DNA from: a virus
Length of the DNA stretch: 21,773 nucleotides
IMG/VR virus record: IMGVR_UViG_3300028025_001879
Coordinates: 1 to 21,773 of that record
Reading direction: 5' to 3' (one strand)
The notes under the pieces were generated by a model. That model was not told the origin of the DNA. It saw only the letters and a program-made list of their open reading frames with translations, and made no database searches. Shown here one piece after another: positions 20,326-21,773 of this stretch (its first letter is position 1; every line of letters begins with the position of its first letter). The translations under genes were made by a program, and so were the position numbers.

Positions 20326-20424
20326 CTACTTAAAATCTTTAAGTATATCTGCCACCATATCTAACTCATCATCAGATAGGTGGTCAATACCTACTGCTTT
20401 ACTTAGCCCTAATATATCAGCCAT
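20326..20424 (-). CDS. 32-aa acidic protein
   Basis: From ATG 20424 with AAGGAGAA upstream to TAG 20326-20328. MADILGLSKAVGIDHLSDDE... is short, acidic and helical. The start overlaps the upstream stop (TAATG). The 12-base segment around its ATG (GAGAACTAATGG) is repeated exactly at the start of the 50-aa gene, a shared translation-initiation cassette. Function unknown. Confidence 0.5.
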   Translation of the reverse strand: MADILGLSKAVGIDHLSDDELDMVADILKDFK

Positions 20425-20552
20425 TAGTTCTCCTTACAATTTTCTAGCATATAGTTATTTACTATCTGCCACTCTTGCTCATTGGTAGGGGCTATCTTAG
20501 AGAGTTTTAATTCTCTAATGCTAAACCTTACCATATCCCTAACTAGGGGCAT
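20424..20552 (-). CDS. 42-aa hypothetical protein
   Basis: From ATG 20552 with GGGAG upstream to TAA 20424-20426, overlapping the next ATG by one base. MPLVRDMVRFSIRELKLSKI... is basic and helical with a Trp-containing C-terminal helix (EQEWQIVNNYMLENC). First gene after promoter 20579-20607. No family is recognised. Confidence 0.5.
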   Translation of the reverse strand: MPLVRDMVRFSIRELKLSKIAPTNEQEWQIVNNYMLENCKEN

Positions 20553-20578: not shown

Positions 20579-20607
20579 AGTATAGCATACTTAGGGCTAT
20601 AAGTCAA
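20579..20607 (-). promoter_or_regulatory. Promoter for the 42/32-aa genes
   Basis: On the - strand TTGACT (20607-20602), 17 bp, TATACT (20584-20579). A GACACGC word lies 14 bp upstream of the -35 box, at the 3' side of a three-way-junction element, as at the promoters at 21113 and 21418. Confidence 0.75.
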
Positions 20608-20624
20608 ACTCTGACTTATGGCGT

Positions 20625-20674
20625 GTCCTAGTAGGGTATCGAACCCTAAGCATACCGAACCTATCGGCTAGGAC
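20625..20674 (-). ncRNA. tRNA-like three-way-junction element 1
   Basis: On the - strand: GTCCTAG (20674-20668) pairs with CTAGGAC (20631-20625), 7 bp. Inside, CCGA/TCGG with a 5-nt loop abuts one side; then a 6-nt linker; then TAGGG-TTCGATA-CCCTA, a 5-bp stem with a 7-nt loop matching a tRNA T-loop (TTCRANN), abuts the other side. It is thus an acceptor stem plus T-arm with one short extra arm in place of the D and anticodon arms. It lies between a stop codon and a promoter. It could be an RNA, an attachment-site relic or a DNA structure. Confidence 0.5.
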
Positions 20675-20684
20675 TATCTTACAA

Positions 20685-20948
20685 TTATAGGTAGTTTTCA
20701 GCAGGTTTAGCGTGTTGCTTTAAGAACTCAGCACGCCTAGCCTCTAATGCTAACTCACGCTCTAATTGTAAATCGTGAGTCTTGATAATCTGAGCCACCA
20801 TACTAGGGGATAATCTAGGGGCGCGCTTACGCTTTACCCCTACTCTCACCGCTTTACCGCTAGCCGTGTCGGATAATCTCCAACTAGGTGAGCCTAAGCC
20901 GTGTTTAAGTATTCCCCTATTAGGTGATTTAGATAATTGGGTAATCAT
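20685..20948 (-). CDS. 87-aa basic protein
   Basis: From ATG 20948 with AGGAG upstream. The N-terminal half is rich in Ser, Gly, Arg and Lys (SPNRGILKHGLGSPSWRL, VGVKRKRAPR); the second half is a long charged helix (SMVAQIIKTHDLQLERELALEARRAEFLKQH). This is the profile of a small nucleic-acid-binding or RNA-polymerase-binding early protein, but no family is recognised. It is monocistronic: promoter 21085-21113 upstream and a structured element directly after the stop. Confidence 0.65.
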   Translation of the reverse strand: MITQLSKSPNRGILKHGLGSPSWRLSDTASGKAVRVGVKRKRAPRLSPSMVAQIIKTHDLQLERELALEARRAEFLKQHAKPAENYL

Positions 20949-21084
20949 CTTATCTCCTAATCTGATTAAGTAGATAGTGGGTAGTCTAGTTAGTATCCCG
21001 CCAGCGCACCCGCCAGCATAACTAGGGGCGTATCTCTCTAGGCTACCTACTACCTACTTAATCCTATATTTAGTTATTAGGTAG

Positions 21085-21113
21085 ATTATAGCACACTATC
21101 CTAAGAATAGCAA
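21085..21113 (-). promoter_or_regulatory. Promoter of the 87-aa gene
   Basis: On the - strand TTGCTA (21113-21108), 17 bp, TATAAT (21090-21085), giving a leader of about 130 nt before the ATG at 20948. GACACGC lies 16 bp upstream of the -35 box. Confidence 0.75.
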
Positions 21114-21130
21114 CTATTATCTAACCTAGC

Positions 21131-21177
21131 GTGTCGCTGAGTTATGAACTCAGATTACCCCCTACTAGGGGCGACAC
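21131..21177 (-). ncRNA. tRNA-like three-way-junction element 2
   Basis: On the - strand GTGTCG (21177-21172) pairs with CGACAC (21136-21131), 6 bp. Inside are CCCC-TAGTA-GGGG (4 bp, 5-nt loop), a 5-nt linker, and CTGAG-TTCATAA-CTCAG (5 bp, 7-nt loop), each arm abutting the closing stem. Arm order, stem lengths, loop sizes and linker match element 1 almost exactly although the sequences differ, which implies selection on shape. It also lies between a stop codon and a promoter. Confidence 0.5.
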
Positions 21178-21186
21178 TCTCCAACA

Positions 21187-21360
21187 CTATCTTAATATCT
21201 GACTAGGCTTACCACCAATTAGGCGGGTCTGCTTAGTGGCAGGTATCCAGTCCTTACGGGCTAATCCTAGTTTATCGCTAAACGCTAGAACTCTCTCTAA
21301 GCGGTCTAATCGCTTTAAGTCTAGTTCTGCCCTTAGTTCTATCTCTAGGGCTTTACTCAT
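21187..21360 (-). CDS. 57-aa hypothetical protein
   Basis: From ATG 21360 with a strong AGGGGGTG-like site (GGGGGTG) upstream to TAG 21187-21189. MSKALEIELRAELDLKRLDR... is a charged helix for about 35 residues, then a short basic tail (KDWIPATKQTRLIGG). No family is recognised. It is the first - strand gene after the divergent promoter region, so probably among the earliest expressed. Confidence 0.65.
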   Translation of the reverse strand: MSKALEIELRAELDLKRLDRLERVLAFSDKLGLARKDWIPATKQTRLIGGKPSQILR

Positions 21361-21389
21361 ATTCACCCCCTTATTTAGTTATGAAGCAA

Positions 21390-21418: not shown

Positions 21419-21428
21419 ACACCCTTCA

Positions 21429-21457
21429 GCGTGTCGGTGGTGTGAATTGTATCACAC
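21429..21457 (-). promoter_or_regulatory. Hairpin/palindrome plus GACACGC box
   Basis: GTGTGATACAATTCACAC (21457-21440 on the - strand) is a perfect 6-bp inverted repeat, followed by CACC and GACACGC (21435-21429). It resembles the palindrome at 17797 (shared TGATAYAAT centre) and lies between the left-arm promoter and the 57-aa gene promoter. A repressor operator or RNA hairpin are both possible. Confidence 0.5.
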
Positions 21458-21465
21458 TCTAATAG

Positions 21466-21536
21466 CCCCTAACTCTAAAGTATAGGGTGAGAGTTCTGCC
21501 TATGCTTATATCATACTCACCCCCATAAGTCAAGCG
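21466..21536. repeat. 71-bp inverted repeat, left arm
   Basis: Perfect reverse complement of 21703-21773, with no mismatch over 71 bp; the arms are 166 bp apart. On the - strand it holds a promoter and about 39 nt of transcribed leader with a small hairpin (AACTCT/AGAGTT). Confidence 0.95.
21505..21533 (-). promoter_or_regulatory. Leftward promoter in left repeat arm
   Basis: On the - strand TTGACT (21533-21528), 17 bp, TATAAG (21510-21505). It would start transcription near 21498, reading into the - strand accessory region; the identical promoter in the other arm points the opposite way. Confidence 0.7.
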
Positions 21537-21542
21537 TAAAGG

Positions 21543-21612: not shown

Positions 21613-21702
21613 ATCTATCTCTAGTATAGGGTTAGAATAGTATATGGATAAGTAGGTAAATAGATTTATCGACAAATGTTTGACCCAGACTTCTTTAATT
21701 TT

Positions 21703-21773
21703 CGCTTGACTTATGGGGGTGAGTATGATATAAGCATAGGCAGAACTCTCACCCTATACTTTAGAGTTAGGGG
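21703..21773. repeat. 71-bp inverted repeat, right arm
   Basis: Exact reverse complement of 21466-21536. It runs to the last base of the window, so the match may extend beyond. Confidence 0.95.
21706..21734 (+). promoter_or_regulatory. Rightward promoter in right repeat arm
   Basis: TTGACT (21706-21711), 17 bp, TATAAG (21729-21734) on the + strand. It would drive genes beyond the right edge, divergently from the - strand region. Confidence 0.7.

Follow-up and report, generated by a model that had tools for sequence, protein, structure and literature searches.

Early genes of the window and two tRNA-like elements

The window, that is, the whole stretch of DNA analyzed here, is a 21.8-kb virus record with its early genes at the right end on the minus strand. 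Its genes include those for a WhiB-like protein, an amidoligase, a glutamine amidotransferase (GATase), and a Toprim protein, and its DnaB-like helicase matches actinobacteriophage helicases. A megablast search of the early region against GenBank phages returned no match. At the family level, the virus was grouped within the Caudoviricetes with two isolated Planktophila phages, E7 and F5 (OX376640, OX376641), with TerL identities mostly of 73–84% between the window's relatives and these two isolates. E7 and F5 were isolated on 'Ca. Planktophila' LanE-43 (PMC10202952), and this TerL similarity makes Nanopelagicales a reasonable inference for the host order of the window virus.

Two short elements, E1 and E2, were located on the minus strand, which is the coding strand of the early genes (Table 1). 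In this orientation, E1 reads GUCCUAG [CCGA UAGGU UCGG] UAUGCU [UAGGG UUCGAUA CCCUA] CUAGGAC and E2 reads GUGUCG [CCCC UAGUA GGGG] GUAAU [CUGAG UUCAUAA CUCAG] CGACAC, with the two arms in brackets. The minimum free energy structures obtained by RNAfold from the single sequences were three-way junctions, save for a few alternative pairs where stems end or loops close, and the folding z-scores were −2.4 for E1 and −2.7 for E2. When an architecture descriptor was run on the whole window, it matched only these two elements, both on the early sense strand, with no antisense match and none elsewhere. Markov shuffles of the early region gave a mean of 0.06 matches, and two or more occurred in 2 of 300 shuffles. 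The sequence, RNAfold, and the descriptor thus agree with the three-way junctions proposed in an earlier note on this DNA. The same note had placed the elements right after stop codons and ahead of the next gene's promoter, and both points held: E1 starts 10 nt after the stop codon of ORF B, E2 starts 9 nt after that of ORF A, and a sigma-70-like promoter of the next gene lies downstream of each. E1 is directly followed by a hairpin; no strong following hairpin was found for E2.

Table 1. Positions of the elements and neighboring features in the window.
Feature	Position	Strand	Remarks
Inverted repeat	21466–21540 / 21699–21773		75 nt, 99% complementary, at contig end
Third GACACGC	21425–21460	−	after a GTGTGA..TCACAC hairpin
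ORF A	21187–21366	−	59 aa; upstream of E2
E2, tRNA-like element	21131–21177	−	acceptor 6–7 bp; small-arm loop UAGUA; T-loop UUCAUAA; tail GCU
Promoter-like site after E2	21085–21113	−	TTGCTA-17-TATAAT
Leader hairpin	20964–21063	−	26-nt arms, 88% complementary; between E2 promoter and ORF B
ORF B	20685–20948	−	87 aa; between E2 and E1; no Pfam or PHROGs match
E1, tRNA-like element	20625–20674	−	acceptor 20674–20668/20631–20625; small arm 20667–20655; linker 20654–20649; T-arm 20648–20632
Hairpin directly 3′ of E1	20599–20619	−	AUAAGUC-AGAGUUU-GACUUAU; overlaps −35 of next promoter
Promoter-like site after E1	20579–20607	−	TTGACT-17-TATACT
ORF C	20424–20552	−	42 aa; downstream of E1

The earlier note also described a common end, GACACGC. 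These letters are present in both elements, but they do not form the same structural feature: in E1, GAC belongs to the stem and ACGC to the tail, whereas in E2, GACAC belongs to the stem and GC to the tail. The heptamer alone was not enriched in the window (three observed, 1.03 expected), and its role as a shared functional end is probably in part coincidental. A role as a common operator is doubtful on the same grounds of register and enrichment, yet the heptamer recurs in the early DNA of relatives. No tRNA-like fold was found at the third copy. The motif GACACGCC is recurrent in early intergenic DNA of many relatives.

The leader hairpin between the E2 promoter and ORF B is kept in L002–L004 with paired changes in its arms and is one more candidate for a structured RNA; it also has a let-7 match, which is below threshold and probably due to chance. 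As for the inverted repeat at the contig end, none was seen in L002, so that it may be an assembly artefact; it may also be a divergent promoter pair towards TerL.

Covariation and recurrence at early gene junctions

To collect relatives, viral contigs were searched with three queries: ORF B, GATase, and the terminase TerL. Among 12 distinct orthologues of E1, all 16 pairs were kept in every sequence and both sides had changed at seven pairs, and this covariation signal was destroyed by sliding or shuffling. In six orthologues of E2, the acceptor stem was invariant, and both sides had changed at three pairs of the small arm and T-stem. A set of 21 copies that are far more divergent kept 98% pairing in the acceptor and T-stem, where 9 of 12 pairs had double changes. 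Two copies in a single genome could not establish the covariation claimed in the earlier note, but these orthologues demonstrate it, and conservation of sequence without compensatory change, the outcome named there as a refutation, did not occur. The isolated phages provide a further case. The E7 element GCCCCCG..GAGG..CCUC.A.CGGGGGC and its F5 counterpart GCCACCG..GAGA..UCUC.A.CGGUGGC differ by compensatory change in the acceptor and T-stem alike. According to RNAalifold, the copies of L039, L050, L080, L092, and L099 form a miniature four-arm cloverleaf, and the 3-bp middle arm of the four-arm copies covaries as well (CGC/GUG, UGC/GCA, UAC/GUA, CAC/GUG).

A covariance model, R1, was built from 19 copies. 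In independent TerL loci, the search of related phages that the earlier note had suggested gave 22 matches at E values of 1 or less. All of them lay on the early sense strand, and the best eight had E values below 0.002. A general descriptor without base-identity rules, in which only 11 or 12 helix layers were allowed, was applied to early regions totalling 0.50 Mb. On the early sense strand it yielded 67 distinct copies, versus 11 on the antisense strand and one in shuffled sequence, and 83 of 164 early regions, many of them incomplete, had a match. E7 carries three elements and L107 four, each set at successive early-gene junctions. E1 and E2 are members of a family of tRNA-like intercistronic elements in early operons.

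Other observations from the relatives are as follows. No convincing element was found by model or descriptor in L034, L035, L052, L053, and L055–L057, some of whose loci end near the early region. A second tRNA-like set with covarying acceptor stems occurs at L058:2252–2310 and at the matching places in L061, L063, L065, L068, L092, and L177; because its 5′ half overlaps a promoter-like TTGACA..TATxxT site, these elements would need read-through transcription. L183, a 3.3-kb contig of the same phage family, carries an E1-type element at 937–995 and is found in a Rhodobacteraceae-labelled MAG (RFQY01000240.1), where it is probably misbinned.

The strand bias bears on whether the elements act as DNA, either as promoter cruciforms or as folded recombination sites at gene-cassette ends. 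E1 is in place even where the gene before it has been exchanged for another, and promoters are close by in the window phage, both of which would suit such a role. However, the tRNA traits described below are specific to the mRNA sense strand and are missing from the 11 antisense matches, the rare wobble pairs are G-U on the sense strand, and a promoter is often absent. E7 has no strong promoter-like match between its elements (best, 9/12), and inspection by eye showed no promoter downstream of the element in L079, L081, and L087, the third subgroup. The action of DNA structures at promoters, which the earlier note had offered as one possibility, was not sustained by these observations, and any DNA-level role is considered highly improbable. 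Two specific DNA identities were also rejected. Covariation of both acceptor strands, together with the repetition of copies from junction to junction, speaks against a host attachment site that originated from the 3′ end of a tRNA. An attC-like cassette site would contain GTT/AAC boxes, and none were apparent by eye.

In the window, each element stands between a stop codon and a promoter, which would likewise fit transcription terminators lacking a U-tract. In E7 and the L079/L081/L087 group, though, termination would silence the next gene, which has no strong promoter before it. U-tract terminators are almost absent near the elements, and no GC hairpin with a U-tract was found at the elements themselves. 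As a terminator role would also leave the tRNA traits unexplained, we regard it as quite unlikely. A hairpin of at least 4 bp starting within about 10 nt 3′ of the element was present in 53 of 61 copies in a filtered set, versus 8.6 expected from shuffles.

Likeness to tRNA

On the transcript strand, an acceptor-like stem of 7 bp stacks on a T-arm whose T-loop has 7 nt to form the body of the element, and R-C follows. Of the only two layer numbers allowed and with the register scored, 12 helix layers were found in 45 of the 67 sense copies and 11 in the other 22. Traits for which the descriptor does not ask were common in these copies: C56 in 63/67, R57 in 65/67, R73 in 65/67, and C74 in 61/67. 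In the filtered set, in which most of the filtering was on C56 and C74, G1-C72 was found in 60/61 copies and G53-C61 in 57/61. The nucleotide at −1 was able to pair with that at 73 in 0 of 61 copies, compared with 15.6 expected, so the stem ends sharply at 7 bp. The 7-bp acceptor stem on the T-arm, G53-C61, and C56 are all shared with tRNA. The agreement is incomplete at other positions. Only about half of the copies retain A58, and instead of C, position 75 has G or U (T) in 61/67. The elements thus encode no CCA and have only part of the RCC that base-pairs with RNase P RNA.

The earlier note had read the elements as an acceptor stem plus T-arm with one small arm replacing the D and anticodon arms, and this architecture was borne out, with two small arms in some relatives. 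Between acceptor and T-arm there are only these one or two small arms, and not the anticodon-arm cloverleaf of tRNA (RF00005). ARAGORN found no tRNA, and there was no RF00005 match at the gathering score. The small-arm loop of E1 (UAGGU) has a GG through which a D-loop/T-loop contact is possible, but this is not general, as other copies have the loops UAACG, GCAAG, and AAUU. In a small Rfam scan, the sole lead for E1 was mascRNA (RF01684), which matched over exactly E1's length, at 20.5 bits (E value, 0.024) and below the cut-off of 42.5. The L181 copy scored 23.0 bits against the same mascRNA cut-off, and the L088 copy scored 28.0 bits for tRNA, where the cut-off is 29. L101 and L145 matched the plastid ycf2 5′UTR family on the opposite strand below cut-off, and the L099 copy had no match in the small scan. 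Since no copy scanned reached any curated Rfam cut-off, including that of mascRNA/menRNA, none belongs to a known family. A phi29-type pRNA was ruled out by the DnaB-like helicase and Toprim protein, which do not suggest protein-primed replication, and by the elements being far too short.

With such likeness and several copies per phage, the elements could be precursors of trans-acting mini-tRNA RNAs, for example, decoys for a host tRNA enzyme or for a tRNA-targeting defence. The copies within one phage differ in sequence and occur at each gene junction, which suggests a cis role, and the absence of an anticodon means that they are not decoys for anticodon nucleases. A trans-acting role is accordingly given little probability.

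Candidate role in early transcripts and related systems

We consider it somewhat probable that E1 and E2 act in cis, as tRNA-like signals for processing of the early phage cistrons at their 3′ ends; judged from sequence, the elements are plausibly processed mRNA ends. Bacterial RNase P cleaves model substrates made of acceptor stem, T-stem, and T-loop and measures 12 bp (PMC11143913). If the early region is transcribed through the element, host RNase P may read the acceptor/T-arm body by this 12-bp ruler and cut 5′ of G1, and/or RNase Z may cut after R73. The cut would free the upstream mRNA, and the downstream mRNA would begin within a few nucleotides of the 3′ hairpin, which may shield it from 5′-end-dependent decay. 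An early multi-gene transcript would in this way be resolved into single-gene messages. This reading is weakened by the incomplete RCC and by the promoters downstream of E1 and E2. As each element in the window has its own downstream promoter, separation of cistrons is less needed there.

The adjoining of two structured parts, their repetition along the operon, and the scarcity of U-tract terminators nearby would also be expected if the bipartite element acted uncut on the polymerase or the message, as an antiterminator like HK022 put or as a stability block between cistrons, with the tRNA likeness reflecting a stable fold. This explanation does not account for the recurrence of G53-C61, C56, and R73-C74 or for the sharp end of the 7-bp stem. 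Moreover, put sites are known from near the start of operons rather than from every junction. We consider uncut action unlikely.

The fuller form of the processing model is that anticodon-less mini-tRNAs, usually paired with a hairpin, punctuate early operons, where host tRNA enzymes would produce single-gene, 5′-protected messages and early genes would possibly be exchangeable cassettes, and that they represent an undescribed class of phage RNA. The chances for and against this whole account appear evenly balanced. Because E7, F5, and their host are isolated, the punctuation it proposes is directly testable. If it is true, tRNA mimicry serves as general operon punctuation in phages that infect one of the most abundant bacterial orders in freshwater, RNase P and RNase Z are routine agents of viral mRNA maturation, and there is a possible reason for the free swapping of early genes. 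In any case, a covariance model is now at hand for a structured RNA family that was missed in the window by Rfam's curated cut-offs.

A literature search, largely of papers available without subscription, found no description of such elements at early gene junctions of DNA phages. The elements are apparently undescribed, and their sub-threshold likeness to mascRNA and tRNA may link them to tRNA-like processing elements. In mascRNA/menRNA, found at the ends of the MALAT1 and MEN-beta transcripts, the acceptor stem, T-arm, and small arms are the same, and a normal anticodon arm is likewise missing. These RNAs are products of RNase P and RNase Z, and the cleavage forms the 3′ end of the host transcript. 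They differ in being animal nuclear RNAs present once per transcript, whereas the phage elements occur several times between coding genes and with a hairpin. Compared with tRNA, the elements share the acceptor stem, T-stem, T-loop, and R73-C74; they lack an anticodon arm and an encoded CCA, and their D-arm is reduced. Phage and operon RNAs that RNase P cuts through tRNA-like features include the C4 antisense RNA of P1/P7, M3 RNA, and operon mRNAs such as that of his (PMC11143913). These known non-tRNA substrates are single cases, C4 being an antisense RNA, rather than a repeated and covarying junction family. Punctuation of the tRNA type is known from mitochondria, and none was found for DNA phages in the literature searched. 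Mitochondria use true tRNAs, whereas the phage elements are not tRNAs and their cleavage is proposed by inference; the proposed phage counterpart would have in common with the mitochondrial system that tRNA-shaped units stand between the genes of a polycistronic transcript and are read by RNase P and RNase Z.
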